DNA of 64,000 nt from assembly GCF_035083965.1 (NCBI RefSeq), contig NC_089738.1:2338259-2402258 (forward strand), given 5' to 3'. Positions 381 to 34,640 of this stretch are shown in pieces (position 1 is the first letter of the stretch; each line of letters begins with the position of its first letter). Under the pieces are notes generated by a model. The model saw only the letters and a list, made by a program, of their open reading frames with translations, was not told the origin of the DNA and searched no databases. Made by a program: the position numbers and the translations under genes. This stretch comes from Branchiostoma lanceolatum. Taxonomy: Eukaryota; Chordata; Leptocardii; Amphioxiformes; Branchiostomatidae.

Positions 381-3107
381 TTATGTTTAGCCATAAGTAT
401 GGCTAAACATATTGTTTTCTCTCATGTTTCTTCTTCTTCTTCTTCTTCTCCTGTCAAATCTTCAAATCGATTCATCTCTGTCATCTTTTGACCAAATGAC
501 CTGAAATTTGGTACAGAGGTAATGTAGGCAAAAACCAATGTGCGTTCTTTTCCTTGTTTTGATATTGACCTTGAAAGTGATTTTATTGAGGTTTTTAGGC
601 TATTTTTAGCATATCTTGGCCTCCTGCGCCCTGGTATTTCAACCGAATGACCTGAAATTTGCTGTATATGTGGCTTGAACAAATATTTAAAGGACTACAT
701 TCCCATTTTTGGCATACATATATTCAAAACGATTTATTTTGGGCTTTCTTGACAATATTTGCCACTTCTGTCACTTTCAATACTACATATGACCTACAGG
801 TCATTGACCCCGAGTGCCTTGCACCTGGCCAAGCTGGAAGTTTGCTTACGAGGAGGAAAGACCGGACATAAACATTTAACGTGATTATCGGGAAAACACC
901 ATGTTCCCTTAAACTCAGTGGTTAAATTGCAGTTTAGGAAATTTTATAACAGAAAACAAGTTAAATCAATGATTTTGTGAATGTTTATTCTAGCATTAGT
1001 TATTCCAGATATTTTCAAACTCCAAATTCTTCAACACAACACGGGAGATCGTTTCTCCTCAGACTGGCGCGACACTCCTGTCAAAATTGATTGATGATCT
1101 CTCTCTGCCGCCGACTTCATACATGATCAAAGGCGGGTGGTAGGCGGTGCGCGGGGCCGGGGAAACTTAAACATATAATGTAGCGAAGTGTTGCACAAGG
1201 AATTCTCACGCTGAGGGGTACATGAAATAATGCTTACAAAATAGACCTCTATGAATCGGGCTACATTCAGCAATGGTAGACGGATTCGGGGCATGCCGCG
1301 CAAAACACATGGTCTCACTGGGGACATGCGTTTTTGCGTTACTCTGGTACTAGTGACTATTATGTGCCGGGAATGTTTATCTATCGCACGCCTTGGAAGG
1401 AAGTTCAACCATGATAAATGGTCGGTCGTTGCGAAAATTTAGAATCCCATGCTGTTGATTTTCGTGATTGAATCTGTAAGAAAATATATTTTCATGTCGT
1501 TCATGTTTTTGGGATGGACGCCGGGACGGGGTGAATTTTTTCTATCATTTTCGTCCCGTTAGTAATGCAAATCGAATCGTGTTGCACAAGAGGCAAAACC
1601 CTAAAAACGTGGGTCTTGTGGAGTGTTTTGGAGCGGGAAAATGCCGGATATTAGCGGTGCCGAACAGTGTACATCGTCGCGCGCGGGTGACGCTCCGTCA
1701 AAACAAATCCGCTGGTGGTCTAGCGCGGCCACCGAAAATAGGCAGAAACACACAGGAGGACTTAGCACCTTCGTTTATGAGGGCAATTGTGAAAATCTTT
1801 TGTTACAAATTGTTCGAACATTGAAACATTTGGATAGATGGTTTGAAACTGTTCTAAATAAAGAGATTTTTGTGTAGTTACGTTCGAAATGTTTCCAACG
1901 TATGTGAAATAAGTTCAAACATGTTATAAGTTTCAATTCTAATTGTTTGAACACTTTAGAACTAGAGTCAATTCCATGTCACCGAGAGGGTTTTTAGATG
2001 ATATTGCTAATAAGTTTGAACAATTTTAGAGAAAAGACTATTTCAGTCAAAATAATTCCAGACCGTTCAAACAATAAGAAATTAAAGTTTGAACATGTTT
2101 GAACTCATCTATATATTTTGGAAATATTATGAAAGTATTTGCACAAATATCTCTTTATTTAGAACAGTTTTCAAAGATCTGTGTGATTGTTCTACTGTTG
2201 GAACATGTTCCAACATTTTGCATCATTCTCAAAATGGTAGATTTGGGTTATTGCCCCCATAAAAGTAGGTGCTAATCACGCTCTATTGTCTGCCTCTGTA
2301 TATTTTTAGATTTCACGTCTGGACACTGGCAACTCTTTTGTCTTTAGGTGTTTATGCATGGCACCTAGTCCTAATCCCCTATACTTTGAAGGGATGTGTG
2401 AATTGCCCTGTTCCCAGCCCACTGACCCAGTTATATCATATTTGTAGAATGTTGGAACATGTTCAAACAAATGATCAATCTATGTTGCAACAGTTTAGAA
2501 ACTAATACAAATAATGTGTTCAATGTTGGAAATTTGTTTAACCTGTTGGAACACGGCAGAAAATATTTAGAACATCAAATAAATGTTGGAAATTGTTCTT
2601 AACAGTTACTTATCTCACATAGATTGTTACAAAGGTTTTGTAAATGTTAGAACAAAAGGCAACAAACACCCTCTCGGTGATGTGGAATTGACTCTATTGT
2701 GACTTAGACATTCTTTTAATCAAAATAGTTCAAACACATTACAAATATTATATTAAAACCCTCTCGGTGACTTTGAATTGACTCAAATATGTTGTTTTTG
2801 GTCATTTCCTTCGTCTCCTGTAAAATCTTCATATGTATACTATGGAAAACTTCATTCTTCCCTGGGGTTGATCTTTTTTAATTCAATTTTGAACTGGGTT
2901 GATTATGCGCAAGAGTGTAATTTTCAGCGGATATTTTTCGACTGGTTTACATGGAAATGGCACGGAATATCCCATTCTTGCAAGGGGAGGATTCTTTAAT
3001 TATTTCTTTCAATTTTGAGCTGGAATGATTATGAAAAAGTCCATTTTTTGCATGGCGAGGAGTATGGCTAAACATGCTGTATTTGCTCACAAATGTTGCC
3101 TTTCTAG
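381..3107. repeat. Triplicated segment, copy 1 (longest)
   Basis: Copy 1 of a long direct repeat that starts with TTATGTTTAGCCATAAG. It carries a TA-type MITE at 1965-2694 that copy 2 lacks. Around 1077-1330 its sequence differs from copy 2, consistent with a replacement or gene-conversion tract. Short open frames here recur in the other copies but resemble no protein I know. Confidence 0.75.
1965..2694. mobile_element. TA-flanked MITE (Tc1/mariner-like target site)
   Basis: The ends are inverted repeats: GAGTCAATTCCATGTCACC on the left, and GAGTCAATTCCACATCACC as the reverse complement of the right end, both continuing into GAGAGGGT. TA flanks both sides (1963-1964, 2695-2696). Copy 2 of the surrounding repeat has the uninterrupted site, so insertion came after the duplication or was lost from copy 2. 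The inside is rich in variants of GTTCAAAC and GTTGGAAC and has no coding frame. A second, unpaired end of the same family occurs at about 2757-2784 and in the other repeat copies. Confidence 0.7.
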
Positions 3108-5205
3108 TTATGTTTAGCCATAAGTATGGCTAAACATATTGTTTTCTCTCATGTTTCTTCTTCTTCTTATTCTTCTTCTCCTGTCAAATCTTCAAATCGA
3201 TTCATCTCTGTCATTTTTTGACCAAATGACCTGAAATTTGGTACAGAGGTAATGTAGGCAAAAACCAATGTGCGTTCTTTTCCTTGTTTTGATATTGACC
3301 TTGAAAGTGATTTTATTGAGGTTTTTAGGCTATTTTTAGCATATCTTGGCCTCCTGCGCCCTGGTATTTCAACCGAATGACCTGAAATTTGCTGTATATG
3401 TGGCTTGAACAAATATCTAAAGGACTACATTCCCATTTTTGGCATACATATATTCAAAACGATTTATTTTGGGCTTTCTTGACAATATTTGCCACTTCTG
3501 TCACTTTCAATACTACATATGACCTACAGGTCATTGACCCCGAGTGCCTTGCACCTGGCCAAGCTGGAAGTTTGCTTACGAGGAGGAAAGACCGGACATA
3601 AACATTTAACGTGATTATCGGGAAAACACCATGTTCCCTTAAACTCAGTGGTTAAATTGCAGTTTAGGAAATTTTATAACAGAAAACAAGTTAAATCAAT
3701 GATTTTGTGAATGTTTATTCTAGCATTAGTTATTCCAGATATTTTCAAACTCCAAATTCTTCAACACAACACGGGAGATCGTTTCTCCTCAGACTGGCGC
3801 GACGTAGCGTCCACCACCAGGCCTTCCTACATGCCCTACGTACGGGCGTATGGATCGTAGAATTCGGCAAAAAAGGAATGATTAGGCCAGTAGAGTCAGT
3901 CCCCGGTAAGGTCAATGATTCGCCCCTTTGCGCTAGCTTGTAACGTTAAATGAATGTACCCTCTGGTGGCCAAACTTCACTGACAAACTTTCTCCCTATT
4001 ATCATCATGAGCTTGCGTTAGTCTGGTACTAGTGACTATTATGTGTTGGGAATGTTTATCTATCACACGCCTTGTAAGGAAGTTCAACCATGATAAATGG
4101 TCGGCCGTTGCGAAAATTTGGAATCCCATGCTGTTGATTTTCGTGATTGAATCTGTAAGAAAATACATTTTCATGTCGTTCATGTTTTTGGGACGGACGC
4201 CGGGATGGGGTGAATTTTTTCTATCATTTTCGTCCCGTTAGTAATGCAAATCGAATCGTGTTGCACAAGAGGCAAAACACTAAAAACGTGGGTCTTGTGG
4301 AGTGTTTTGGAGCGGGAAAATGCCGGATATTAGCGGTGCCGAACAGTGTACATCGTCGCGCGTGGGTGACGCTCCGTCAAAACAAATCCGCTGGTGGTCT
4401 AGCGCGGCCACCGAAAATAGGCAGAAACACACAGGAGGACTTAGCACCTTCGTTTATGAGGGCAATTGTGAAAAGCTTTTGTTACAAATTGTTCGAACAT
4501 TGAAACATTTGGATAGATGGTTTGAAACTGTTCTAAATAAAGAGATTTTTGTGTAGTTACGTTCGAAATGTTTCCAACGTATGTGAAATAAGTTCAAACA
4601 TGTTATAAGTTTCAATTCTAATTGTTTGAACACTTTAGAACTATTGTGACTTAGACATTCTTTTAATCAAAATAGTTCAAACATATTACAAATATTATAT
4701 TAAAACCCTCTCGGTGACTTGGAATTGACTCAAATATGTTGTTTTTGGTCATTTCCGTCGTCTCCTGTCAAATCTTCATATGTATACTATGGAAAACTTC
4801 ATTCTTCCCTGGGGTTGATCTTTTTTAATTCAATTTTGAACTGGGTTGATTATGCGCAAGAGTGTAATTCTCAGCGGATATTTTTCGACTGGTTTACACG
4901 GAATATCCCATTCTTGCAAGGGGAGGATTATTCAATTATTTCTTTCAATTTTGAGCTGGAATGATTATGAAAAAGTCCATTTTTTAGCAGAAGTGTATTT
5001 GTTAATCAATTAGTGGATATGGTTGTGGACTGGTCCATATTGTGTTGAGGTGCTACTGGAAGATTCAATTTTGGACTGGGGTGATTCATTTTTTTAGTGC
5101 AAGTATTTCAGAATGGTCCATTGTTATTTTGGGAGAGTCCATTTTTTGCATGGCGAGGAGTATGGCTAAACATGCTGTATTTGCTCGCAAATGTTGCCTT
5201 TCTAG
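3108..5205. repeat. Triplicated segment, copy 2
   Basis: Second direct copy, offset about 2.73 kb from copy 1 and nearly identical over long stretches. It lacks the 730-bp MITE of copy 1, so the sequence at 4642-4643 is the uninterrupted TA target site. Confidence 0.75.
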
Positions 5206-6980
5206 TTACTCATGTTTCTTCTCCTGTCAAATCTTCAAATTGATTCATCTCTGTCATTTTTTGACCAAATGACCTGAAATTTGGTACAGAGGTAATGTAG
5301 GCAAAAACCAATGTGCGTTCTTTACCTTTTTTTGATATTGACCTTGAAAGTGATTTTATTGAGGTTTTTAGGCTATTTTTAGCATATCTTGGCCTCCTGC
5401 GCCCTGGTATTTCAACCGAATGACCTGAAATTTGCTGTATATGTGGCTTGAACAAATATTTAAAGGACTACATTCCCATTTTTGGCATACATATATTCAA
5501 AACGATTTATTTTGGGCTTTCTTGACAATATTTGCCACTTCTGTCACTTTCAATACTACATATGACCTAAAGGTCATTGACCCCAAGTGCCTTGCACCTG
5601 GCCTTGCATGCCTGTGAGCCTTGCGACCACCTGATTGGTCAATTGGGTTAATCTAATTATTTTGCATTCCTGGCGCAGGTGTGCTAGTATTCATGCCAAA
5701 TATGGTATGGGAATTCCTAGGACAAGCACGCCGTTGTCTGTCTCGGACCAACACGCGTCTCCCGTGATGTGTAGCGTCCACCAGGCCTTCCTACATGTCC
5801 TACGTACGGGCGTATGGATCGTAGAATTTGGCAAAAAAGGAATGATTAGGCCAGTAGAGTCAGTCCCCGCTAAGGTCAATGATTCGCCCGTTTGCGCTAG
5901 CTTGTAACGTTAAATGAATGTACCCTCTGGTGGCTAAACTTCACTGACAAACTTTCTCCCTATTATCATCATTAGCTTGCGTTAGTCTGGTACTAGTGAC
6001 TATTATGTGCCGGGAATGTTTATCTATCGCACGCCTTAAAAGGAAGTTCGACCATGATAAATGGTCGGCCGTTGCGAAAATTTGGAATCCCATGCTGTTG
6101 ATTTTCGTGATTGAATCTGTAAGAAAATATATTTTTATGTCGTTCATGCGTTCATGTTTTTGGGACGGACGCCGGGATGGGGTGAATTTTTTCTATCATA
6201 ACATTTTCGTCCCGTTAGTAATGCAAATCGAATCGTGTTGCACACGAGGCAAAACACTAAAAACGTGGGTCTTGTGGAGTGTTTTGGAGCGGGAAAATGC
6301 CGGATATTAGCGGTGCCGAACAGTGTACATCGTCGCGCGCGGGTGACGCTCCGTCAAAACAAATCCGCTGGTGGTCTAGCGCGGCCACCGAAAATAGGCA
6401 GAAACACAAACATTTGGATTAATCAAACACATTTCTTTTAATCAAAATAGTTCAAACATATTACAAATATTATATTAAAACCCTCTCGGTGACTTGGAAT
6501 TGACTCAAATATGTTGTTTTTGGTCATTTCCTTCTTCTCCTGTCAAATCTTCATATGTATACTATGGAAAACTTCATTCTTCCCTGGGGTTGATCTCTTT
6601 TAATTCAATTTTGAACTGGGTTGATTATGCGCAAGAGTGTAATTTTCAGCGGATATTTTTCGACTGGTTTACATGGAAATAGCACGGAATATTCCATTCT
6701 TGCAAGGGGAGGATTCTTTAATTATTTTGAGCTGGAATGATTATGAAAAAGTCCATTTGTTAGCAGAAGTGTATTTGTTAATCAATAAGTGGATATGGTT
6801 GTGGACTGGTCCATATTGTGTTGAGGTGCTACTGGAAGACTCAATTTTGGACTGGGTGATTCATTTTTTTAGTGCAAGTATTTTAGAATGGTCCATTGTT
6901 ATTTTGGGAGAGTCCATTTTTTGCATGGCGAGGAGTATGGCTAAACATGCTGTATTTGCTCGCAAATGTTGCCTTTCTAG
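5206..6980. repeat. Triplicated segment, copy 3 (shortest)
   Basis: Third direct copy. It lacks the TTATGTTTAGCC lead-in and skips part of the middle: after the GC-rich block ending near 6408 it jumps to sequence matching about 4660 of copy 2. It ends where the palindromic MITE at 6981 begins. Confidence 0.7.
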
Positions 6981-11344: not shown

Positions 11345-11432
11345 GGCCTTTTGGAACTGCATGAGCCGATTACGTTTCAAATTTTTAAAGGGAGAAACTC
11401 AGGAAGGGGCTGACGGATGGTCATGACATCTA

Positions 11433-11492
11433 GCCTGCGTCGGCACCTCCATTCCTCGGAGTCGTCAATCAGCGTTGCCACAGCAACGTTCG
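11433..11492 (-). pseudogene. Relic of the peptide-gene signal/R-rich exon
   Basis: On the minus strand these 60 bases read VAVATLIDDSEEWRCRRR, a diverged copy of the exon 2 part VVVATLIDDSEGWRRRRR of the two peptide genes nearby. There is no start codon or splice context, and copy B lacks it at the matching place. It suggests a third, mostly deleted paralogue, or a small templated insertion. Confidence 0.6.
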
Positions 11493-12021
11493 CTAGTATG
11501 AAGATAGCTTAAGTGACGATTGACAAATTCATATGCTAATTGTTAGCGCTATGTGGAAATATGGACTGTCGGTGCTGTTAATAATGTATTACTGTGCTGT
11601 TATAACATATGTAGATGAAATAAATCGATTCACAAGTTTTCATACAATAGAATTTATTGAATCAGCACTTTCAGTGCACAGAATGATGTATATCGGAGCA
11701 TGGTATTCTTGTAATTTATATACACACGTTGTTGATGTTGTGAGAAGGCGGATTCTGTTTTTATACACATTGTTTACCTTATCCGTTTGTATTCCGTATC
11801 TATATTATATTGAGTTCAATAACATTGCATGTTACGTAATTAGAAGTAATCCCTCAAAGTCTCTTGACAATGTAAATTCAGATACAGGCGACGACAAATT
11901 ATATTTTGGGTCTAAATCATTTGATTTTTTCGACATAACTATTTATCGTGACTCCTGCGGTTATGACGTCATTATCATTTGAAACTTGTGCTGTTCCGGT
12001 CATCCAGCATATCACTGAGAA
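11493..12021. other. 3' flank of peptide gene A
   Basis: AT-rich. Read on the minus strand it is the downstream region of peptide gene A, with a possible AATAAA polyadenylation signal at about 11653-11658 that copy B keeps. A 149-codon plus-strand frame at 11533-11982 is broken in copy B and reads like AT-rich non-coding DNA. Confidence 0.4.
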
Positions 12022-13018
12022 CTAGCGTCTTCTTCGAGCATCTGTGAACAAAAAATATCAGTATTAGCGACAGGAAAAGTACCTAATGCGATGCACAATT
12101 GGTTGAAGCCATGAATAAACGTATCTAAGTGACAGCCATGATATTTTTTGCGAAACTGTTGTACTCAAAGCAACACCTTAATCAACCGTTTTGTCCTCAA
12201 ATATACAGAAAGATTCGTTATTATAAGTGAAAAGTGAAAAGTGGAAAGAAGACGAGCGCAACTTGATGGTTGCTCAAGTAAATCCTGGGTAACCAACATG
12301 TTGTGCCTGGATCTTGTCAATGACGTTATCGATCAATCGCTCCTTACACTGGTCACACAAGGAACAACACTGACGAACAACGTTAACGGTTCCCATTAAA
12401 ACGTGGTAAGTCACAATTACATAGAGTGGGCTAGAGAGGGTAAGTAGGACGGGATTGGTTCCGTGGTCTTACGGCGACAAGTGTGAAAACCAGATTGGCT
12501 GCTTACCCTCTTCATGATATGTGCGTATGTTCTCCAAATCCATGTCCTTCAGTCCCCGTTCGTTCAACTGTTCAGGCTGTTCATCCAGTTCTTCCAGGAG
12601 CGACCTCGCCTCTTCCACTACCTCCCTCAGCTCTGCGTCAACTGGAAGGAGAAACGGGAAGGCGCATATTAGTTGGTCACGTATGATGCTGGTGCTGCAT
12701 TACATGAACAAATCCATTCTTAAAGAACATTTTGATACGAGTATGATGTCGTGGAACAGATCTCGGGCTCTCTTTACAGGTTTTTCTTCTGTGTGCGATG
12801 TAAGAACATTGTATTATCAATCCTTAGCCAACCAGACAAAATCTATATAGAAAATTGAATTGTCCGTCTGAATGTTTGTGATGACCGAACGTACCATCAT
12901 CGGCGTCGCGTTTTCCGTATCTTCTGCGCCTGCGTCGGCGCCTCCATCCCTCGGAGTCGTCGATCAGCGTTGCCACGACAACCATCGTTACAAGCAGCAT
13001 GCAAACAAACAGCTTCAT
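12022..13018 (-). CDS. Secreted Arg-rich peptide precursor, gene A
   Basis: A three-exon coding region (13018-12895, 12641-12507, 12041-12022) predicts 92 residues. A non-coding first exon (about 13335-13272) splices to 13031. Every junction has GT...AG: donors GTAAGT (exon 1), GTACGT (exon 2), GTAAGC (exon 3); acceptors CACCAG, CTTCCAG, TTCACAG. Residues 1 to about 17 form a hydrophobic signal peptide, then IDDSEG, W25, eight Arg (26-33), Tyr34 and G35-K36-R37, a standard amidation/dibasic cleavage signal. The remaining 38-92 is strongly acidic and helical-looking, ending DARRRR. Known precedent: tunicate styelin/clavanin and fish piscidin precursors pair a short cationic peptide with an acidic pro-region. 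Inference: the mature product is an Arg-rich, possibly amidated peptide acting as an antimicrobial or signalling peptide. I do not recognise a named family. The paralogue is at 20518-21497. Confidence 0.72.
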
Positions 13019-13271
13019 GATGTAGTTTGAACTGGTGCAGAAAAAAAAACATCTTGATTAGTCGGGTATTGTTTGGTCTTTTTTTGGCACCGTCTTAGAG
13101 GCGGAGGCAAAACCATCCCTATGTTGCTTGAAAACATTACAACACAATACTTATTGTAAAAAGACAGAGTGGAAAATCAGTATTATCATTGTGGTAACCC
13201 GCTAAGAAAACAATAAGGTAAAACAATGGTTGAGACCAATGCCCTACAGTTGGTAACAGTTTGATACTTAC

Positions 13272-13370
13272 AGAATTCCTGGACAGGTAGATCACGGTAC
13301 GACGTCACTCAGGTGTCACGACGGGAGGGAATGAATGAATAAGAAGACCTCGCGGAATGGCAATATATAC
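13272..13370 (-). promoter_or_regulatory. TATA promoter and non-coding exon 1 of peptide gene A
   Basis: On the minus strand GTATATATTG (13361-13370) is a TATA box about 30 bases before a likely start near 13335. Exon 1 runs to 13272, where GTAAGTATC begins intron 1. The same arrangement is kept at 21750-21848 in copy B. Confidence 0.6.
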
Positions 13371-13487
13371 TCCAGTGTAAGACAATTATGCAGATGAGTC
13401 ATTGTATTAATGTCTGTGGCGAATTGTCTGTTGATTATACTGCAATGGGCGTTTCATATCTGTGAAAAGATGACACACATATGGTAA

Positions 13488-14831
13488 AGCCCCCGTCACA
13501 AATCAAGAATTTCGCTCGGCCGACTTGTCGGCGAGCTCCAAATGGCGATTTTCGGCCGAAGTACGACCGACGTCCTGGCGATTCTGCGAGCTTCGGGCGA
13601 TTTTTCGGAGCTCGGCCGACGTTCGCGGGTCACTGGAAGCTGCGCTTAAATTCAGCGAGGCCTCGGCGACGATTTTTGAACTCGCACAGCTCGTCAACAG
13701 TTTGCCCGTAGCTCGCCCGAGCAACGCCCAGCGCTCGGCCAATATTCGGGCGGGCATCCGACGATTTTAGACCCGATTTTTGGTCGGCCGGAGGTCGCCC
13801 GAGCTCTTCGGCCTCGTGCGAGCCTCGCACGGGCTTTGTACAATAATCGGACGACCGTCGTCAGTGTTCCGGCCGACTCATGAAAAATAAGGCGTGCTTC
13901 GGGCGAGCGTTGTACTGGTATCGCTGGGCGCTTGGACGGGCTCCGGCCGAACTCCTTCTTGTTTATATATAAAAGGTAACGACAGTTTAGTTTATGACAT
14001 AAGATGATAGATGATACTGTGATATTAATTGATACTAATATCATCTTGTCAAAGAATGCTGTCAAACGTTTCTAATGAAAGACAATTCAATTGCAAAGTT
14101 AAATTTTCATTAAAAAAATTATCATCAATGAGATTTGGACACCGCAAACAATACCTGTTTCGTTTTTGTTATTGTTTTGGATGTTTCAATTTATATATCA
14201 ATGGACTGGGGCTTGACTTATGAGGCTTGACTTGACTTCCTGAGTTTTTCCTCCACAAAACGACTACTAGTATTTGAAAGTCCACTGAGTCATTATAGAT
14301 CTATGTTTGTCGGCCGAGGCACGCCCAGGCGTCGGCAGGGCGTCGATAGGCTTACCAACGGTCGGCCGAAGCTCGGACGGCGTTCGCCCGAGCTTCGGTC
14401 GATTTCCGTTTGGTGAAAATGTTTGGATCGGGGTTGAACGACTGATCTATTGACTTTGTGGCTCCTGAGCTTTTATTTGGATTGGTCTATAACAAAATTC
14501 CTGTCTATAGTATTATTTTCAGTGTGGCCGTCCACTTCACTCATGCCCTACAGATTTGCCACAACTCAGAAAGTAAAGTTGGTCCAAGTATGCCCTTGTT
14601 ACCAGGTCAGTTGATTCTGACTTCGTCCGTGTCCAAGAGATGGTACCGTCTCATGAGGTATTTATGATTATTAGTGTTTGACGGACGTCGCCCGAGCTCC
14701 GTTCAATTTGTGACGGGGCAGGTTTTCAGCGAAAAATACGGTCGCAGCTCGGGCCGGGCGATTGTGAAATTCGGCGAGCTTCCGGCGATCTACAAAATCG
14801 GCCGATGCTCGCATGAATTGTGACGCCGGCT
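13488..14831. mobile_element. TAA-flanked DNA transposon (PIF/Harbinger-like), 1344 bp
   Basis: Terminal inverted repeats AGCCCCCGTCACAAATC and AGCCGGCGTCACAATTC (right end reversed) match at 14 of 17 positions. TAA is duplicated at 13485-13487 and 14832-14834. Copy B of the segmental duplication is the empty site with a single TAA (21963-21965), which proves insertion and fixes the ends. GC-rich outer parts (13500-13960, 14310-14400, 14690-14830) contain dozens of TCGGCCGA / GCCCGAGC-like words in both orientations; the centre is AT-rich. Open frames here are by-products of the CG-rich words, and I see no transposase. Confidence 0.8.
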
Positions 14832-14847
14832 TAAAGACAATTGTCTG

Positions 14848-15340
14848 TCAATGGTAGAGACACGTCATACTGACAAAAAAGTAGAGAAGACAACTGTGAA
14901 AGAGTAAACTCACACGTTTATGAAAGAAAATGACATCTGTTTGTAAAATCAGCACACAATGTACAGAATACCAACAGACAACTGCTTTTGCTTTCTTTGG
15001 TCGTGTCTTGACTTGGCTATAAAATTCAGATTGGACACGTATGATTGAATTGGGTAGCGTGTGTAAGTAGTTTTGGCGCTGGAAATCGTTCAAACAATTT
15101 ATATTGTGGTATGCAATAGTTGAAACGAAAAATGAATTCTTTATTGTACAGGATACACAAAACAAAACACGAGCGTGCGAAACTGTCAGTACGTGTTTTA
15201 TTGGACTGAGAAAATAACTTTTACAACTTTTGTTTCCAGCTTTTTTAAGTGCCCCCAAAGCTGAATTTTGAAATTCCACTCAGTATTATTTCAAACCCCC
15301 TTTGTGAACTTTGCTGATCTCCTAATTTCAGAACAGACCG
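14848..15340. other. Non-coding part of duplication copy A
   Basis: A 143-codon minus-strand frame (14848-15279) is also open in copy B (21979-22410). However, the single-base differences I see between the copies within it all change the amino acid, the reverse of what selection on a protein would leave. I treat it as non-coding. Confidence 0.5.
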
Positions 15341-16150
15341 ATTTTGTGAAGTATATTCAGGAAGAGGTTGGTACTGGCATTGCAGAAAAGGCTCTGATAG
15401 TGACAGTCAAGGGTCATATCATTAGAAGCGCAAATACTTATGCAGCGCTCACCAGGAATCTTCCGGTTTCTCTTTGACAACTAAAATCAAACCTACACCC
15501 GGCTACCATTTTTAGATTATTACTTACTTTATTTTGATACTCTCAGTATATAAAACCTACTGAAAACACGTTTGAGGCGTTTCTCTCGCATAGAAAAAGC
15601 TCTATTTGTGCTACTTAGACTTTTTACACCATTCTTAACACAATCGTCAAGTTTTGTGAAACGCACATTGTACATTTGTGAGCCGTCCTTCGTTTCAATA
15701 CAGAAGATATTACTTTCTCATAGGCCCGAACTTGCAGTAGCAGTGGTAGTGGAAAATCAGGTTCCATTTCTAACCGTTGTACCTTCTACCCCAGAACCCA
15801 TTTTATCAATTGCAAACATGAAATAACAAGCTAAAAAAGGCCAATTTTGTGAAGTATATTCAGAAACCGGTTGGGACCGGCACTGCAGAAAAGGCTCTGG
15901 TAGTGTGAAACTATCAACAGTGACTGTCAACTTTCATATCTTTACAGGCCGCAAACACTTATGCATCGCTCACCCAGAATCTTCAGAATCCTCTGTATTT
16001 TTACCACTAAAAACTATGCAAAATAACTGATTAAATCAACTCAGCTACCATTTTTTAATCATTACTTATTTTTATACATTCAGTGTATAATACAAACTGA
16101 AAACACATTTGAGGCATTTCTTTCACATAGAAAAGGCTTTATTTGCGCTA
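15341..16150. repeat. Tandem pair of diverged ~0.3-0.5 kb units
   Basis: Two diverged direct copies share TTTTGTGAAGTATATTCAG (15344 and 15846), GCAGAAAAGGCTCTG, the CAGCTACC/CGGCTACCATTTTT region and GAAAACAC.TTTGAGGC. The same pair is present in copy B (22475 and 22978 onward). Function unknown; it lies just left of the H3 promoter remnant. Confidence 0.6.
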
Positions 16151-16171
16151 CAATCCTCTTCAATTGTCTCA

Positions 16172-16245
16172 AGTACACGACAAGAAAAGTAGTCAATGAG
16201 CGATGGGGAGTGAATTTATAAGACCCGCTAAACCTCCCTAATTCC
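16172..16245 (-). pseudogene. Orphan histone H3 promoter/5'UTR remnant
   Basis: ACGACAAGAAAAGTAGTC and GGGAGTGAATTTATAAGACC match the H3 leader and TATA region of the histone units (28566-28617). No H3 coding sequence follows, and the match stops at CCCGCTAA. It marks the breakpoint of the segmental duplication. Confidence 0.7.
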
Positions 16246-19500: not shown

Positions 19501-20517
19501 CCGAGTACTAGTACTCGGCGAAGATAATTATGGGCTTAACGCAGATGTAGAAAAGTCTGATTCTGACAGAAAAAAAAGCGCATCGGCTTTGTCTGGCGAT
19601 TGAATCTATCCCAAATAAGTCCCTTACGGTACAGGTGTTTCGCCTTGAAAATGCCCGCAGAGTTGACAACAATGTCTAAACAACAATATGACGACACCAT
19701 TTCAACAGTATTTTTCTTATACATGTTGTCTTGTGCATGGAGGATAACTCTTTTGGTAGTCGGCTGCCCTTAGTGAAAACAATAACCTTTGTTTTCCTAA
19801 GGTTCCCATTTAACTTCCAGGTATGACATTAGTCTTATAATCTATTCAAGGCAGACTGTAGTCCTTACGCGCAAGTTGCTTAGCTTTTTTGAACTACAGG
19901 AGCCGGGATTTCGTTTCAAATTTTTAAACAGAGATACTCAAGAAGGGGCTGACGGATGGTCATGACATCTAGTATGTAGATAGCTTAAGTGATGATTGAC
20001 AAAAGGATATGCTAATTGTTAGCGCTATGTGGAAATATGGACAGTCGGTGCTATTAATAATGTATTATTGTGCTAATATAACATATGTAGATGAAATAAA
20101 TCGATTCACAAGTTTTCGTTTTCTTTCAATAGAATTTATTGAATCAGCACTTTCAGTGCACAGAATGACGTATATCGGAGCATTGAATACATGGTATCCT
20201 TGTCATTTATATACACATGTTGTTGATGTTGTGAGAAGACGGATTCTGTTTTAATACACATTGTTTTGCCATATCCGTTTGTATTCCGTATCTATATTAT
20301 ACTGAGTTCAATAACATTGCATGTTACGTAATTAGAAGTAATCCCTCAAAGTCTCTTGACAATGTAAATTCAGATACAGGCGAGACGACAAATGATATTT
20401 TTTTGTCTAAATCATTTGATTTTTTCGACACAACTAATTAATCGCGACTCCTGCTGTTATGACGTCATTATCATTTGAAACTTGTGTTGTTCCGGTCATC
20501 CGGCAGATCACTGAGAA

Positions 20518-21497
20518 CTAGCGTCTTCTTCGAGCATCTGTGAACAAAAAATATCAGTATTAGCGACAGGAAAAGTACCTAATGCGATGCACAATTGGTT
20601 GAAGCCATGAATAAACGTATCTAAGTGACAGCCATGATATTTTTTGCGAAACTGTTGTACTCAAAGCAACACCTTAATCAACCGTTTTGTCCTCAAATAT
20701 ACAGAGAGATTCGTTATTATAAGTGAAAAGTGAAAAGAAGACGAGCGCAACTGGATGGTTGCTCAAGTAAACCCTGGGTAACCAACATGTTGTGCCTAGA
20801 TCTTGTCAATGACGTTATCGATCAATCGCTCCTTACACTGGTCACACAAGGAACAACACTGACGAACAACGTTAACGGTTCCCATTAAAACGTGGTAAGT
20901 CACAATTACATAGAGTGGGCTAGAGAGGACGGGATTGGTTCCGTGGTCTTACGGCGACAAGTGTGAAAGCCAGATTGGCTGCTTACCATCTTCGTGATCT
21001 GTGCGCATGTTCTCCAAATCCATGTCCTTCAGTCCCCGCTTGTCCAACTGTTCAGGCTGTTCATCCAGTTCTTCCAGGAGCGACCTCGCCTCTTCCACTA
21101 CCTCCCTCAGCTCTGAGTCAACTGGAAGGAGAAACGGGAAGGCGCATATTAGACACATATTATGCTGGTGCTGCATCACATGAATAAACAAATCTATTCT
21201 GAACATTTAGACACTAAAACTGTCTGAGTGTGGAATGAATCTCGGGCTCTCTTTACAAGTCTTTCTTCTGTGTGCGACGTAAGAACATTGTATTAGCAAT
21301 CCTTAGCCAACCAGACCAAATGTAGAAAAAAAATTGAATTGTCCGTCTGAATGTTTGTGATGACCAAACGTACCATCATCGGCGTCGCGTTTGCCGTATC
21401 TTCTGCGCCTGCGTCGGCGCCTCCATCCCTCGGAGTCGTCGATCAGCGTTGCCACGACAACCATCGTTACAAGCAGCATGCAAACAAACAGCTTCAT
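20518..21497 (-). CDS. Secreted Arg-rich peptide precursor, gene B
   Basis: Paralogue of gene A with the same exon plan: coding exons 21497-21374, 21121-20987 and 20537-20518, with a non-coding exon 1 ending at 21750 that splices to 21510. It predicts 92 residues. I start at the MKLFVCML methionine. An upstream in-frame ATG lies in the intron before the acceptor at 21511-21512. Signal peptide, W-R8-Y and GKR are identical to gene A; the only base change in that exon is silent (Gly35, GGA/GGC). The acidic pro-region differs at six codons, including N68D and E69K, which create a Lys-Arg pair (69-70) and so a possible second processing site absent from gene A. Function as inferred for gene A. 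Confidence 0.72.
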
Positions 21498-21749
21498 GGT
21501 GTAGTTTGAACTGGTGCAGAAAAAAAACATCTTGATTAGTCGGGTATTGTTTGGTCTTTTTTTGGCACCGTCCTAGAGGCGGACGCAAAACCATCCCTAT
21601 GTTGCTTGAAAACATTACAACACAATACTAATTGTAAAAAGACAGAGTGGAAAATCAGTATTATCATTGTGGTAACCCGCTAAGAAAACAATAATGTAAA
21701 ACAATGGTTGAGACCAATGCCCTACAGTTGGTAACAGTTTGATACTTAC

Positions 21750-21848
21750 AGAATTCCTGGACAGGTAGATCACGGTACGACGTCACTCAGGTGTCACGAC
21801 GGGAGGGAATGAATGAATAAGAAGACCTTGCGGAATGGCAATATATAC
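21750..21848 (-). promoter_or_regulatory. TATA promoter and exon 1 of peptide gene B
   Basis: GTATATATTG on the minus strand (21839-21848), then a short leader exon ending at 21750 before GTAAGTATC. It is almost identical to the gene A promoter, so both genes are probably expressed alike. Confidence 0.6.
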
Positions 21849-21978
21849 TCCAGTGTAAGACAATTAAGCAGATGAGTCATTGTATTAATGTCTGTGGCGA
21901 ATTGTCTGTTGATTATACTGCAATGGGCGTTTCATAGCTGTGAAAAGATGACACACATATGGTAAAGACAATTGTCTG

Positions 21979-23158
21979 TCAATGGTAGAGACACGTCATA
22001 CTGACAAAAAAGTAGAGAAGACAACTGTGAAAGAGTAAACTCACACGTTTATGAAAGAAAATGACACCTGTGTGTAAAATCAGCACACAATGTACAGAAT
22101 ACCAACAGACAACTGCTTTTGCTTTCTTTGGTCGTGTCTTGACTTGGCTATAAAATTCAGATTGGACACGTGTGATTGAATTGGGTAGCGTGTGTAAGTA
22201 GTCTTGGCGCTGGAAATCGTTCAAACAATTTATATTGTGGTATGCAATAGTTGAAACGAAAAATGAATTCTTTATTGTACAGGATACACAAAACAAAACA
22301 CGAGCGTGCGAAACTGTCAGTACGTGTTTTATTGGACTGAGAAAAGAACTTTTACAACTTTTGTGTCCAGCTTTTTTAAGTGCCCCCAAAGCTGAATTTT
22401 GAAATTCCACTCAGTATTATTGTAAACCCCCTTTGTGAACTTTGCTGATCTCCCAATTTCAGAACAGACCGATTTTGTGAAGTATATTCAGGAAGAGGTT
22501 GGTACTGGCACTGCAGAAAAGGCTCTGATAGTGACAGTCAAGGGTCATATCATTAGAAGCCGCAAATACTTATGCAACGCTCACCATCTTCCGGTTTCTC
22601 TTTGAAAACTAAAATCAAACCTACACCCGGCTACCATTTTTAGATTATTACTTACTTTATTTTGATACTCTCAGTATATAAAACCTACTGAAAACACATT
22701 TGAGGCGTTTCTCTCGCATAGAAAAATCTCTATTTGTGCTTCTTAGACTTTTTACACCATTCTTAACACAATCGTCAAGTTTTGTGAAACGCACATTGTA
22801 CATTTGTGAGCCGTCCTTCGTTTCAATACAGAAGATGTTACTTTCTCATGGGCCCGAACTTGCAGTAGCAGTGGTGGTGGTGGTGGAAAATCAGGTTCCA
22901 TTTCTAACCGTTGTACCTTCTACCCCATGACCCATTTTATCAATTGCAAACATGAAATAACAAGCTAAAAAAGGCCAATTTTGTGAAGTATATTCAGAAA
23001 CCGGTTGGGGGACCGGCACTGCAGAAAAGGCTCGGGTAGTGTGAAACTATCAACAGTGACTGTCAACTTTCATATCTTTACAAGCCGCAAACACTTATGC
23101 ATCGCTCACTCGGAATCTTCAGAATCCTCTGTATTTTTACCACTAAAACTATGCAAAA
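21979..23158. other. Non-coding right part of duplication copy B
   Basis: Matches 14848-16023 of copy A, including the diverged tandem units. A (GGT)n expansion, GTGGTGGTGGTGG at about 22872, distinguishes it from copy A. No gene is supported. Confidence 0.45.
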
Positions 23159-24285
23159 CTAGAGTTCCACGACCTCATACCTTCGCCAAATGATTTTAAC
23201 CTTTATGACTGACGTATCAGGAGTGTTTCTCATCAGTTATAAATCATACCAGTTGATCTTCTTCACCCAAAAAACAAAAGTATGAGCTTAACAAAGAAAA
23301 TTATGCTAACAAAGTAACATTTATCATGAATTATGCAAATGAGGTCCTTATTAGCATAATTTGATTCAACGATGTTCACATTCACATAACTTCCAAATAA
23401 CACAAGTATGAAATTGCCATCATTTACCTGTATGGAATTATAGTAGTTTCTCATTAATCATGCAAATTAGGCCTACATTTGCATATTTTTTAACCATCAA
23501 AAGTCCTCAGTAACAAATGTCACATATTTCAATAGTCATATCATGGAACACAGCGTTTTTTTTTAAATTGTATCATTGATTATGCAAATTAGAATCTGAA
23601 TTGCATAATTATCGTCCAATCATTCTAAGCATCACACAAGCTATCTACATACCAAAAATCATGACCATCCATCAAGGCCATCTTGAGTTATAGTACTTTC
23701 TCATTAATTATGCAAATTAGGTCTTCATTTGCATAGTTCATATCAATTAATATTTCTCTCTTCCTCAGTTACATATGTCACATGTTTCAGAGTCCTATCG
23801 TGGAATTTGGCGGATGTAAAAACTTTCCTCATTAATTATGCAAATCAGATACTGATTTGCATAAAACGTAACTTATCATGTACATCATCACTCAAGCTAT
23901 CTACTTACCAAAAATCATAACCATCCATCAAGCCCTTCTTGAGTTATTCCCTTTCAAAGTCTGAACCAAAACCTGCTCCTGCAGCTCCGCTAGGGGTCCA
24001 AAACCTACACCACTTACTCTCTGTCCAAAGAGCTATCTACCACTCAAAAATCAGTTCCATAGCTTGTCCAGAACACGAGATATCGAAACAGGAAGTTCCA
24101 CTGCAGTACCGTAACAAGCCGCTAGGGGACCCAAAATCTAATCATTTCTTAGTCTCATCAAGACCTACCCACCTACCAAATATCAAGACAATCCATCAAA
24201 TCCTTCTCGAGTTATGCTGGTGGTTACAAACATACATACATACATACAAACGCTACCCTCTGCATAACCTTCTCGGCGAAGGTAA
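23159..24285 (-). mobile_element. Non-autonomous Helitron with known empty site, 1127 bp
   Basis: Copy A reads GCAAAA|TAACTG uninterrupted. Here the element sits exactly between that A and T with no target duplication, the hallmark of Helitron insertion. On the minus strand it begins TTACCTTCGCCGAGAAGG and ends GTCGTGGAACTCTAG, a CTRR-type 3' end. The 5' motif TACCTTCGCC recurs inverted about 20 bases from the 3' end. No coding capacity. It shares ends with the helicase-bearing copy at 16376-19527, the likely autonomous relative. Confidence 0.8.
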
Positions 24286-24445
24286 TAACTGATTAAAAAA
24301 AATAAATCAACTCAGCTACCATTTTTAATCATTACTTATTTTTATACATTCAGTGTATAATACAAACTAAAAACACATTTGAGGCATTTCTTTCACATAG
24401 AAAAGGCTTTATTTGCGCTACAATACTCTTCAATTGTCTCAAGTA

Positions 24446-24848
24446 CACGACAAGAAAAGTAGTCGATGAGCAATGGGAAGTGAATTTATAAGACCCGCTA
24501 ATCAGATGTCCGCAGATTACAATTGCTCGGCGCCCTGCCGTCTGATTGGTTCCCTCGCTAGAATCCGACCTTGCGATTGGTCAGTTGTCGTGTCTCCACG
24601 ATCTGATGTTTGCAGCAAGGTCACCCTTTTTTTTTTGGGGGGGGGGTCCTGCATGGAAGATGCACTTTAGAATGACAATTCGCTACATGTGCTTGTAGAT
24701 GTACAGCGGCAACAAAACGCAAACACACATCTATCCTTTTGCTCAATAAAGTTTGCGACTAGTAGCATACGATATCGCCAAGAAACTATAACGTCTTTCG
24801 TAGTCTACACACGCCCATACTAACATTCATGCTTTTGGTAGTGTGTCA
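24446..24848. pseudogene. Left-edge histone unit fragment: H3 promoter, H1 deleted
   Basis: Diverged copy of the H3 leader/promoter and H3-H1 spacer (compare 28560-29036). At about 24848 it jumps from GGTAGTGTGTC to ACACACTCCCAATTG, which in full units lies about 1.2 kb further on. The whole H1 gene is therefore missing, and the H3 coding region is also absent on the left. CACA-rich sequence at the junction suggests a microhomology-mediated deletion. Confidence 0.75.
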
Positions 24849-25163
24849 CACACACTCCCAATTGCACCAAGATCTCTCCACACGCCACGCCAATCATCTT
24901 ATTCACGCACACAGAGTATACCAACCAAGACAATAAAACATACTGCGATTCATACGCATTTCTCAGTATCCAACCGTGCACACATCTTTACAGAAATCAA
25001 CAAGACAGTCTATCACTACAAAGAAAACGGGACCATAATTGTTCATTGTGTGTTTGCATGACCGGCTTGGGTCTTTTGTTTTATGTATATATTATGCTCG
25101 TTGTTCGAGTCAGGTGTGTACATGTGTTGTGAGAAGATACAGCTCTTTTGGTGAGATTTGGGT

Positions 25164-25179
25164 GGCCCTGAAAAGGGCC
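25164..25179 (-). terminator. Histone 3' stem-loop, H4 unit 1
   Basis: Minus strand GGCCCTTTTCAGGGCC: six-base-pair stem, four-base loop, binding site of SLBP. A purine-rich downstream element CAAAAGAGC follows for U7 snRNP pairing. It directs replication-dependent, non-polyadenylated 3' ends. Confidence 0.95.
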
Positions 25180-25216
25180 GGGGTTTGCTTGCTTTCGATG
25201 AGGAGAGTCAGATCCT

Positions 25217-26429
<1,213 letters not shown>

Positions 26430-26445
26430 GGCCTTGAAAAAGGCC
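26430..26445 (-). terminator. Histone 3' stem-loop, H2B unit 1
   Basis: Minus strand GGCCTTTTTCAAGGCC. The fifth stem pair is T-A instead of the C-G of the other loops, so pairing is kept by a compensated change. An AAAAGAGC downstream element follows. Confidence 0.93.
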
Positions 26446-26478
26446 GGGGTTGGTTACGAGCAGAGTCGGTCGGTCGCT

Positions 26479-26841
26479 TTACTTGGAGCTGGTGTACTTG
26501 GTGACGGCCTTGGTGCCCTCGCTGACGGCATGCTTGGCCAGCTCGCCCGGCAGCAAGAGTCGCACGGCGGTCTGTATTTCGCGGCTGCTGATGGTGGAGC
26601 GCTTGTTGTAGTTAGCCAGACGAGAAGCCTCGCCAGCGATACGTTCAAAGATGTCGTTGACGAAGGAGTTCATGATTCCCATGGCCTTGCTAGAGACGCC
26701 GGTGTCGGGGTGCACCTGCTTCAGCACCTTGTAGATGTAGACACCGAACGTTTCCCTTCTCTTTCTCCTCCTTCCGCGCTTCTTGTCTCCGGCGGGCCTG
26801 GCCTTGCCAGCTTTCTTGGCGGCTTTTCCACTTGGCGGCAT
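26479..26841 (-). CDS. H2B: Histone H2B, unit 1
   Basis: 120 residues. A Lys/Arg-rich tail (1-30) is followed by the H2B fold with [31 protein letters not shown] and the C-terminal [16 protein letters not shown], which includes the conserved ubiquitin-acceptor lysine region. It dimerises with H2A in the nucleosome. Divergent from H2A with 277 bases between start codons. The shared region holds an H2B octamer (ATTTGCAT on the minus strand, 26918-26925), a TATA box (26901-26907) and CCAAT. Intronless. Confidence 0.97.
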
Positions 26842-27493
<652 letters not shown>

Positions 27494-27525
27494 ATTCCAG
27501 ACGGAGACCGAACCACCAAAACCCC

Positions 27526-27541
27526 GGCCCTTTTCAGGGCC
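27526..27541 (+). terminator. Histone 3' stem-loop, H2A unit 1
   Basis: GGCCCTTTTCAGGGCC, 33 bases after the H2A stop, with a purine-rich CTCGAAGGAA downstream element. Confidence 0.95.
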
Positions 27542-28075
27542 ACCCACATCCTCTCGAAGGAACTGTATCATCTACACACTAATTCAACTGCATAAAGCCA
27601 AATATACGTATGAATACATGACCAAAACACACAGTACATCTTTGGAGACTAACAAGACAATTTAGCACTGAAAGTACCCTTGCACATCTCATTTCAAGAT
27701 AGCATACAGACAACGTTGCACGGTAATGCGTGAGCAAGACCGACCACACAAGAAATAACCGCAATGTCGCAATATCAAGTATGTGATTTGATGCTAGCTG
27801 ACAATATCTGTATGCTATATGTGTTTGTGTGGCCGGAGAGGGTGGTGGAACGGACACTTTTGCACGGAGTACGGACACTTCTGAAGAAGATCATGTTTTT
27901 ATTGATATAGCTTCTACGCGTAATTCGCCTGATTGGTTTGTCTGTATAGGTATGTAGGGGGGGGGAGGAGTAGTCGACTTGTGATGTGTAACTGTATTTC
28001 TGAGGTAAGTGTGGCAGAATCATGCGTCTGTTTAAAGAAACGTGAACGATGTAGATCTTTCTGGGATATGTGAGT
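27542..28075. other. H2A-H3 convergent spacer, unit 1
   Basis: Between two convergent histone genes. AT-rich with a G run (27957-27966) and no gene recognised. Confidence 0.5.
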
Positions 28076-28700
<625 letters not shown>

Positions 28701-29194
28701 GTTGTCGTGTCTCCACGATCCGATGTTTGCAGCAAACTCGCCACTTTTTTTGGGGGGGGGGGTCTTGCATGAAAGATGTGCACTTTAGAATGACAATTCG
28801 CTCCATGTGTCTTATAGATTTACAGCGGCAACAACACACATCTATCCTGTTCCTCAATAAAGTTTGCGACTGGTGGCATACGATATCGCCAAGAAACTCG
28901 GACGTCTTTCGTTGTCTTAGCCAGTGCGTGCGTGCGTGCGTGCGTACGTTCCTACACACGCTCATACAGTGATGATACACACACACACACGCACACACAC
29001 ACAAACATACTAACATTCGTGCTTTTGGTAGTGTGTCTGCGAGTGGGAAGACTTGCCTTTTAATTCATTTTTCATTCATTCATTCATTTCTTTCTTTCTT
29101 TCTTTCTTTCTTTGAGGGGATGGTGTGTAGATATTCGTGTGGACATGGGATAACTTTGACGTGGATGACATAGTTCTTTTGTTAGGATGTGGGT
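28701..29194. other. H3-H1 spacer with microsatellites, unit 1
   Basis: Contains a G run (28752-28762), (TGCG)n near 28926, CA repeats near 28978, (TTCA)n and (TTTC)n near 29070-29113. No gene recognised. Confidence 0.6.
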
Positions 29195-29210
29195 GGCCCT
29201 GAAAAGGGCC
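29195..29210 (-). terminator. Histone 3' stem-loop, H1 unit 1
   Basis: Minus strand GGCCCTTTTCAGGGCC with an AAAAGAAC downstream element, 25 bases beyond the H1 stop. Confidence 0.94.
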
Positions 29211-29234
29211 GGGGTTTATAGAAAGTTCGACTCT

Positions 29235-29798
29235 TCACTTCTTCTTGGGCTTGGACGCCTTCTTGGAAGGCGCTGCCTTCTTAACGGCCGGCTTCTTTTT
29301 TGATGTCTTCTTGGTGGGTTTCTTGGCAGCTGGTTTCTTGGCCGGAGATTTCTTGGCCTTCTTGGCGGCTGGCTTCTTGGTCTTCTTTGGGGTGGCAGCC
29401 TTCTTGGCCTTTGGCTTTTTCTGCTTGGTGGCCTTGGGTTTCGTGGCCTTCTTAGCCGCGGGTTTCTTGACTGGCTTCTTGGCGGCCTTCTCGGCGGCTT
29501 TCTTGGCTGCGACGTTGATTTTAAAGGATCCCGACGCCCCCGTGCCTTTAACCTGAAGGATGGTACCCTTGTCCACCAAGGCTTTCAGGGCGCGCTTGAC
29601 GAAGTGCGCTTTCTTGTCCACGTCGAACTTGTAGTTGGCGGCGATGTACTTCTTGATGGCCGGCACGGAAGAACCGGTACGGTCCTTGAGTGCTTCCAGA
29701 GCCGCCGTAATCATGGCGGTGGTGGGCGGGTGAGCCGCCGGGGCCTTGGTCGCCTTTGGCTTGCTAGCCTTCTTGGGGGACGATGCTGCAGCGGACAT
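29235..29798 (-). CDS. H1: Linker histone H1, unit 1
   Basis: 187 residues from the [15 protein letters not shown] methionine, the usual H1-type start. An in-frame upstream ATG at 29843 would add 15 residues, and I cannot exclude it. A short basic N-tail is followed by the winged-helix globular domain (about 22-95: [20 protein letters not shown], then [12 protein letters not shown] and GASGSFKI), then a C-terminal tail of KKPAAKK-type repeats typical of H1. It binds linker DNA and compacts chromatin. Upstream on the minus strand AAACACA (29934-29940) is the H1-specific box. Intronless. Confidence 0.93.
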
Positions 29799-29843
29799 GA
29801 CGGTTTTCTTTGTCTGCGATGGACGTGCAAATGAACCCGACAT

Positions 29844-30569
29844 CTTGTCAAGCTGGCGTCATGTAGCCGTGGTGCGAACGTGGTCGGAGACGTCGCGGCT
29901 TGTCTGCGTCTTATTGTCCGTCGCGGCGAAATTTGTGTTTCTTTCCTAACTTTATGGTTGAATTTCTCCATTCCCGGGTATCGAAAATGTTACTGGCTCG
30001 GTTTCCGTACAAGAGGACACGTCCACCTCACTAATTTGATGGAAGAGGCTGGTCACTAGCCCTCAGATACTGAGATATTTGCCATACTTATCAGTAAGCA
30101 CGCCCTGAGAGTGCCGACGGCTGATCGAGTTTGCATGCAGAGAAACGAGTGACCGCATGGATCGATGAGCACCAAGGCTTACGACGCAGATATAACATAT
30201 TTGAGCTAAGCAACTTCACTACGCGTGAACGAGCAGAGATCGACAAGATATAGACCATAAGCAACACACACTCCCAATTGCACCAAGATCTCTCCACACG
30301 CCACGCCAATCATCTTCTTCACGCACACAGAGTATACCAACCAAGACAATAAAACATACTGCGATTCATACGCATTTCTTAGTATCCAACCGTGCACACA
30401 TCTTTACAGAAATCAACAAGACTACAAAGAAAACGGGACCATGTTTGTTCATTGTGTGTTTGCATGACCGGCTTGGGTCTTTTGTTTTATGTATATATTA
30501 TGCTCGTTGTTCGAGTCAGGTGTGTACATGTGTTGTGAGAAGATACAGCTCTTTTGGGGAGATTTGGGT
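29844..30569. other. H1-H4 spacer, unit 1 to unit 2
   Basis: H1 promoter side: AAACACA box at 29934-29940, then about 600 bases without a gene. Matches 35250-35975. Confidence 0.6.
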
Positions 30570-30585
30570 GGCCCTGAAAAGGGCC
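30570..30585 (-). terminator. Histone 3' stem-loop, H4 unit 2
   Basis: GGCCCTTTTCAGGGCC on the minus strand, followed by CAAAAGAGC. Confidence 0.95.
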
Positions 30586-30622
30586 GGGGTTTGCTTGCTT
30601 TCGATGAGGAGAGTCAGATCCT

Positions 30623-31835
<1,213 letters not shown>

Positions 31836-31851
31836 GGCCTTGAAAAAGGCC
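31836..31851 (-). terminator. Histone 3' stem-loop, H2B unit 2
   Basis: GGCCTTTTTCAAGGCC on the minus strand, the variant stem also seen in unit 1. Confidence 0.93.
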
Positions 31852-31884
31852 GGGGTTGGTTACGAGCAGAGTCGGTCGGTCGCT

Positions 31885-32247
31885 TTACTTGGAGCTGGTG
31901 TACTTGGTGACGGCCTTGGTGCCCTCGCTGACGGCATGCTTGGCCAGCTCGCCCGGCAGCAAGAGTCGCACGGCGGTCTGTATTTCGCGGCTGCTGATGG
32001 TGGAGCGCTTGTTGTAGTTAGCCAGACGAGAAGCCTCGCCAGCGATACGTTCAAAGATGTCGTTGACGAAGGAGTTCATGATTCCCATGGCCTTGCTAGA
32101 GACGCCGGTGTCGGGGTGCACCTGCTTCAGCACCTTGTAGATGTAGACACCGAACGTTTCCCTTCTCTTTCTCCTCCTTCCGCGCTTCTTGTCTCCGGCG
32201 GGCCTGGCCTTGCCAGCTTTCTTGGCGGCTTTTCCACTTGGCGGCAT
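31885..32247 (-). CDS. H2B: Histone H2B, unit 2
   Basis: The same 120-residue protein as the unit 1 copy, with the same divergent promoter toward H2A (octamer at 32324-32331). Confidence 0.97.
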
Positions 32248-32899
<652 letters not shown>

Positions 32900-32931
32900 A
32901 TTCCAGACGGAGACCGAACCACCAAAACCCC

Positions 32932-32947
32932 GGCCCTTTTCAGGGCC
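32932..32947 (+). terminator. Histone 3' stem-loop, H2A unit 2
   Basis: GGCCCTTTTCAGGGCC after the H2A stop. Confidence 0.95.
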
Positions 32948-33481
32948 ACCCACATCCTCTCGAAGGAACTGTATCATCTACACACTAATTCAACTGCATA
33001 AAGCCAAATATACGTATGAATACATGACCAAAACACACAGTACATCTTTGGAGACTAACAAGACAATTTAGCACTGAAAGTACCCTTGCACATCTCATTT
33101 CAAGATAGCATACAGACAACGTTGCACGGTAATGCGTGAGCAAGACCGACCACACAAGAAATAACCGCAATGTCGCAATATCAAGTATGTGATTTGATGC
33201 TAGCTGACAATATCTGTATGCTATATGTGTTTGTGTGGCCGGAGAGGGTGGTGGAACGGACACTTTTGCACGGAGTACGGACACTTCTGAAGAAGATCAT
33301 GTTTTTATTGATATAGCTTCTACGCGTAATTCGCCTGATTGGTTTGTCTGTATAGGTATGTAGGGGGGGGGAGGAGTAGTCGACTTGTGATGTGTAACTG
33401 TATTTCTGAGGTAAGTGTGGCAGAATCATGCGTCTGTTTAAAGAAACGTGAACGATGTAGATCTTTCTGGGATATGTGAGT

Positions 33482-34106
<625 letters not shown>

Positions 34107-34600: not shown

Positions 34601-34616
34601 GGCCCTGAAAAGGGCC
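34601..34616 (-). terminator. Histone 3' stem-loop, H1 unit 2
   Basis: GGCCCTTTTCAGGGCC on the minus strand beyond the H1 stop. Confidence 0.94.
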
Positions 34617-34640
34617 GGGGTTTATAGAAAGTTCGACTCT

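Follow-up and report, generated by a model that had tools for sequence, protein, structure and literature searches.

Gene structure and encoded precursor

The window, by which we mean the whole stretch of 64,000 nucleotides of Branchiostoma lanceolatum DNA that was analysed, contains on its minus strand a four-exon gene for a small precursor with a core of eight consecutive arginines (copy A) and, about 8.5 kb away, a second full copy of it (copy B). The locus is a duplicated gene, not the single one of the initial annotation. Direct reading together with in-silico joining of the exons confirmed the junctions proposed earlier for copy A, at 13272/13031, 12895/12641 and 12507/12041. A TATA box (TATATAT, 13363–13369, on the minus strand as are all the gene features below), read directly and found also in copy B, lies 23–29 nt upstream of the putative transcription start near 13340. 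Exon 1 (13272–13340), the 5′ end of which is placed from the TATA spacing, consists of 5′-UTR only. Exon 2 (12895–13031) holds 13 nt of 5′-UTR, the ATG at 13018, the predicted signal peptide, the W-R8-Y-GKR segment (arginine codons of the run at 12920–12943) and the residues DADD, and exon 3 (12507–12641) encodes about 45 residues of the acidic extension, while the coding part of exon 4 (12022–12041) completes an aspartate codon and adds ARRRR and the stop. The coding parts measure 124, 135 and 20 nt (stop included) and therefore both introns inside the coding sequence are in phase 1, one at the end of exon 2 and one at the end of exon 3. All introns are GT-AG, with donors GTAAGT (exon 1), GTACGT and GTAAGC and with acceptors that have pyrimidine tracts and AG ends.

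The joined exons give a coding sequence of 279 nt including the stop, for a precursor of 92 residues, MKLFVCMLLVTMVVVATLIDDSEG-WRRRRRRRRY-GKR-DADDVDAELREVVEEARSLLEELDEQPEQLNERGLKDMDLENIRTYHEEDARRRR, in which a hydrophobic N-terminus is followed by W-R8-Y, GKR and an acidic tail of 55 residues. The gene model and precursor layout originally proposed (TATA, non-coding first exon, three coding exons with their phases, W-R8-Y-GKR and an acidic part ending in DARRRR) stand in all their elements at these junctions and are conserved in copy B. The 3′ end has to be extended: there is an AATAAA at 11658–11653, and the transcript is therefore probably about 370 nt longer than the end at 12022 given before, with a putative 3′-UTR, read directly, at 11653–12021. 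The transcription unit of copy A probably runs from 13340 to about 11640. We consider the locus to be, very probably, a real protein-coding gene.

The second copy, a relic and a local insertion

When the gene was compared against the window, a block at 20077–21967 aligned with the gene region, at 93.7%. Aligned to copy A, copy B has its exon 1 (5′-UTR) at 21750–21818, exon 2 at 21374–21510 with 41 identical residues, arginine codons equal to those of copy A at 21399–21422, exon 3 at 20987–21121 with six residue changes, an identical exon-4 coding part at 20518–20537 and a region corresponding to the 3′-UTR at 20137–20517, with the conserved AATAAA inside it. Copy B keeps the TATA box, both splice sites of each of the three introns, the reading frame, the stop and the AATAAA. 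Residues 1–41 of the two precursors are the same, and the changes from A to B are A44S, N68D, E69K, I80M, Y83D and E86D; despite these six changes the charge of the tail is −11 in both copies. Four collinear duplicated blocks, 88–97% identical, cover window positions 11346–16231 and 19883–24501 and hold both gene copies.

A further piece of exon 2, 63 nt long and 87% identical, lies downstream of copy A at 11433–11495. It extends from the signal peptide to a point inside the arginine run, with a cysteine replacing one arginine and without the GKR, and, compared with the matching 3′ flank of copy B, it is a clean insertion. Judged by its sequence, this relic is a fragment of exon 2 and not a whole third gene. 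On the other side of copy A, some 150 bp upstream from the putative start, a 1.3-kb insertion (13490–14831) has no counterpart in copy B. It is bounded by an imperfect inverted repeat, AGCCGGCGTCACAA and TTGTGACGGGGGCT (12/14 by eye), with TTA on both flanks, and it contains repeated stretches resembling CGGCCGAG; it is probably a non-autonomous DNA transposon.

The window holds several other features. A tandem histone array (H1, H2A, H2B, H3 and H4) occupies 25100–36300, with units of about 5.4 kb and 11 histone 3′ stem-loops. The H3 frames at 28080–28565 and 33486–33971, one in each of two histone units, depart near the C-terminus from what we take to be the usual H3 sequence, possibly due to a frameshift or a sequencing error. 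There is also a LINE coding for reverse transcriptase and endonuclease, and three of 137 scanned members matched Pfam cytochrome P450 (best E 8.7e-21); the frame at 52711–53064, with GYETTANTL, is probably among these three. The histones, the LINE and the P450-like frames are what one would expect of animal DNA.

Divergence between the copies

Piecewise alignment of A and B shows that the divergence is patchy. Mismatches per aligned position amount to 3/149 upstream, 0/69 in exon 1, 4/239 in intron 1, 1/13 in the exon-2 UTR, 1/124 in the exon-2 coding sequence (a synonymous change), 37/249 (14.9%) in intron 2, 8/135 in exon 3, 5/449 in intron 3, 0/20 in the exon-4 coding sequence and 19/367 in the 3′-UTR. 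As far as the stop, the exons are free of indels; five gap runs fall in the three introns and five in the 3′-UTR. The coding sequence as a whole thus has nine substitutions and no indels in 279 nt, and the introns 46 substitutions and five gap runs in 937 aligned nt. Clustering of the changes in intron 2, and also in part of exon 3, is suggestive of gene conversion or of split alleles. The two copies likely represent a tandem gene family, unless the assembly has split alleles: A and B could be alleles that were set in tandem by the assembly.

Is there a sign of selection in these numbers? The NG86 estimates, which rest on nine changes only, are dN 0.029 and dS 0.049. The substitution rate of the coding sequence does not differ from that of the introns (9/279 versus 46/937, Fisher p 0.32), nor does the exon-2 coding sequence differ in divergence from introns 1 and 3 combined (1/124 versus 9/688, p 1.0). 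We at first read the identity of exon 2 as purifying selection and dropped this reading, since introns 1 and 3 are equally little diverged. In exon 3, six of the eight substitutions are non-synonymous, so that non-synonymous changes number six there and zero in the exon-2 coding sequence (p 0.030). We do not take this value as proof of selection: the divergence of exon 2 is not below that of introns 1 and 3, and the substitution rates of the whole coding sequence and of the introns do not differ.

The arginine run and its counter-charge

The arginines of copy A are encoded by AGG CGC CGA CGC AGG CGC AGA AGA, that is, by four kinds of codon without any short repeat, and we reject a microsatellite origin of the run on these grounds. 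In six-frame translation the window contains three runs of at least eight arginines, namely those of copy A, copy B and a microsatellite run at 429–452 which uses two codons, while 60 dinucleotide shuffles of the whole window produced none. Since the run has four codons, is not a microsatellite and did not arise in any of the 60 shuffles, its origin by chance is unlikely. As for the run at 429–452, a segment of about 2–2.7 kb occurs three times in window positions 428–6727, with pieces 65–99% identical, and in the first of these copies an AGA microsatellite reads as R8.

The core with GKR carries a charge of +10 and the tail −11, so that the precursor after residue 24 sums to −1. It had been suggested that the acidic part neutralises the polycationic core, and with these values this is plausible. 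Exon 3 alone was modelled by single-sequence prediction as helices at 3–21, 23–33 and 36–44 of its 45 residues, with mean pLDDT 74.2 and pTM 0.41, the first half being more certain and the second lower.

Comparison with known families

Searches with the precursor gave nothing above cut-off in Pfam (best E 0.036, at 14 bits against a cut-off of 25), and no match in NCBIfam (best E 0.52) or the PDB (best 0.7). In IMG/VR there were 29 pattern matches, none of which was confirmed as a relative. A text search of the literature did not find the strings RRRRRRRYGKR, RRRRRRRRYG or SEGWRRR; the W-R8 string occurs there in six papers, of which, as far as the retrieved text goes, five concern synthetic or therapeutic peptides and the sixth the signal peptide of PTPRJ. 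The family had been called apparently unnamed at the outset, and the absence of relatives from Pfam, NCBIfam, PDB, IMG/VR and the literature agrees with that, while its novelty is provisional: these collections are not animal transcriptome or protein sets, so that absence from them is weak evidence of novelty and a description under another name could be missed. Within the collections searched, what appears to be new is, provisionally, that a gene which otherwise looks like that of an ordinary secretory peptide has an R8 core without interruption.

In layout the gene is close to those of the myticalins and modiocalins, linear cationic antimicrobial peptides of mussels, of which the myticalins are antibacterial. 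As far as the available text of these reports describes, myticalin genes have a 5′-UTR exon 1, an exon 2 that encodes the whole signal peptide, the cationic peptide, the dibasic site and the beginning of the extension, a phase-1 intron 2 directly behind the cleavage site, an anionic extension, a frequent glycine for amidation, and a clustered arrangement with pseudogenes (PMC5577615; PMC12294457). Copy A has the same tripartite precursor, with a signal peptide (judged by eye), a cationic peptide, a dibasic site and an anionic C-terminal extension, and likewise a first exon of 5′-UTR only and an intron 2 in phase 1, four residues after GKR. The differences lie in the number of exons, since myticalins are described with three exons and two introns while copy A has four exons, its third intron splitting off the last 20 coding nt, and in the peptide itself, which in the myticalins described spans 17–42 residues with arginine mixed with Pro, Ser, Tyr or Trp, in contrast to the R8 homopolymer here. 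In these accounts myticalins are reported only from mussels (Mytiloida). The signal peptide agrees with the published 50% consensus of myticalins at 8 of 18 informative positions; this was reached by 869 of 20,000 shuffles when the two regions were shuffled apart and by 3040 of 20,000 when only the hydrophobic part was shuffled. In view of the extra intron, the homopolymeric core and a weak signal-peptide similarity that shuffles reach with fair frequency, we do not accept membership of the myticalins.

Amphioxus itself has BjAMP1, which resembles copy A in being a small secreted precursor (97 aa) with a 24-residue signal peptide and a dibasic site between anionic and cationic parts. The order of the parts is reversed, however, with the anionic region first and the cationic peptide at the C-terminus, and the peptide is described as a 21-residue amphipathic one of charge +6, with cysteines and, in the available text, without an arginine run (PMC4683396). 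The reverse order of the two parts sets copy A apart from the BjAMP1 type. The NPY family ends in R-x-R-Y/F-amide, which R-R-R-Y-amide would resemble, and its intron sits within the codon of the penultimate arginine. In copy A the RRRY-GKR is present but this arginine codon is uninterrupted, and by this intron rule we reject membership of this family.

Proposed processing and function

The layout of the gene suggests the following route to a mature peptide. Signal peptidase would cut near G24, as predicted by eye, or alternatively after A16; the −3,−1 rule allows the S at −3 and the G at −1 of the G24 site. A convertase may then cut after the KR of GKR, and a carboxypeptidase together with the amidating enzyme would leave roughly WRRRRRRRRY-NH2, with eight positive side-chain charges and a free N-terminus. 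The acidic extension would mask the charge of the core in the secretory pathway, so that the cation would be freed only at or near release. Once free, the unstructured polycation may bind anionic microbial envelopes, with the terminal W and Y serving as interfacial anchors. That the product is a secreted, processed peptide we regard as probable.

What would such a peptide do? Antimicrobial peptide, neuropeptide and natural cell-penetrating peptide had been put forward together, and the anatomy of the gene, judged by analogy, favours the antimicrobial type. Layout, paralogue and relic are all in keeping with a host-defence peptide. We propose, with the balance of chances near even, that the two neighbouring genes, accompanied by the relic, encode precursors of a small, C-terminally amidated arginine-homopolymer peptide whose likeliest role is host defence; for defence as the main role taken separately, we would likewise put the chances at about one half. 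By analogy, the peptide may work like a myticalin-type peptide, and we do not claim it as a myticalin. Several points count against the defence reading. With its many sites for cleavage at basic residues, the R8 run might be fragmented before release, hydrophobic residues are mostly more abundant in the linear defence peptides known so far, and the GKR site, with Y and not R at P4, suits dibasic-cutting convertases more than furin.

Alternative explanations

A neuropeptide or peptide hormone, in which amidated W-R8-Y-NH2 would act on a receptor and the acidic part would be a spacer like the GnRH-associated peptide, is an unlikely reading. GnRH precursors carry before GKR a decapeptide of the general QHWSxxxxPG type. 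According to the available text on vertebrate GnRH genes, one exon holds the signal peptide, a short peptide, GKR and the helical start of the associated peptide, two more coding exons follow and some genes have a separate 5′-UTR exon, which is all similar to the arrangement here, as is the helical associated peptide of many (PMC6135963). The coding exons of three such genes, however, are 138/84/36, 141/90/54 and 144/81/27 bp, all multiples of three, and the introns are therefore in phase 0 as against phases 1 and 1 in copy A (PMC6135963). The different intron phase, and W-R8-Y-GKR in place of the GnRH motif, led us to reject GnRH membership; a homopolymeric arginine core also offers little receptor specificity, although the NPY-like end would speak for a neuropeptide. 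Somewhat less probable still is a polyanion binder that would condense or cross-link acidic matrix, mucus or nucleic acids in a protamine-like manner, or act as a natural cell-penetrating peptide. As a synthetic core, R8 is standard in cell penetration and delivery, and in the literature text retrieved the W-R8 strings are mostly in synthetic or therapeutic peptides. Synthetic octa-arginine and W- or Y-tagged R8 peptides have an equal core, but they are not genome-encoded secretory precursors. The locus offers no positive evidence for this reading, which would reflect a general property of polyarginine.

The arginine run could also act as a brake on the secretory pathway by binding in the acidic cleft of convertases of the furin type and inhibiting them, which we find improbable. 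Tandem families are not typical of convertase-inhibiting regulators, and the charge-balancing tail would counteract binding. Furin is indeed strongly inhibited by polyarginines, with Ki of 0.0013 µM for nona-D-arginine amide and 0.106 µM for hexa-D-arginine amide in the available text of the source, but these values come from D-peptides, and L-R8 may be a substrate (PMC4482483). At a comparably low level we place a non-functional locus, either a recently duplicated one in decay or an assembly-split pair of alleles: a coding sequence with no demonstrable selection, the nearby relic and the 1.3-kb insertion upstream of copy A, about 150 bp from its start, would all suit it, but both copies retain intact splice sites, frame, stop, TATA and AATAAA, and the exons carry no indel as far as the stop. 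A role in the nascent chain, where the run would slow translation and the released peptide would have no role, seems very improbable. It has a precedent in the arginine cluster of the extended signal peptide of PTPRJ, which is described as attenuating translation (PMC7725344); here, though, the run follows the hydrophobic segment, and the well-formed GKR after it would be superfluous.

Implications

The boldest version of our proposal is that of an animal family of naturally encoded amidated octa-arginine peptides, cell-penetrating or convertase-blocking, which are kept safe by an acidic counter-ion helix until processing; we hold this to be unlikely. If the reading of these genes as R8 precursors is correct, a genome-encoded secretory precursor of this kind would show how cells make and store R8 without cleaving it or coming to harm from it, and it would be a naturally occurring template for masked polycations. 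That it shares its layout with the mussel myticalins would then point either to a wider spread of this gene plan or to convergence.
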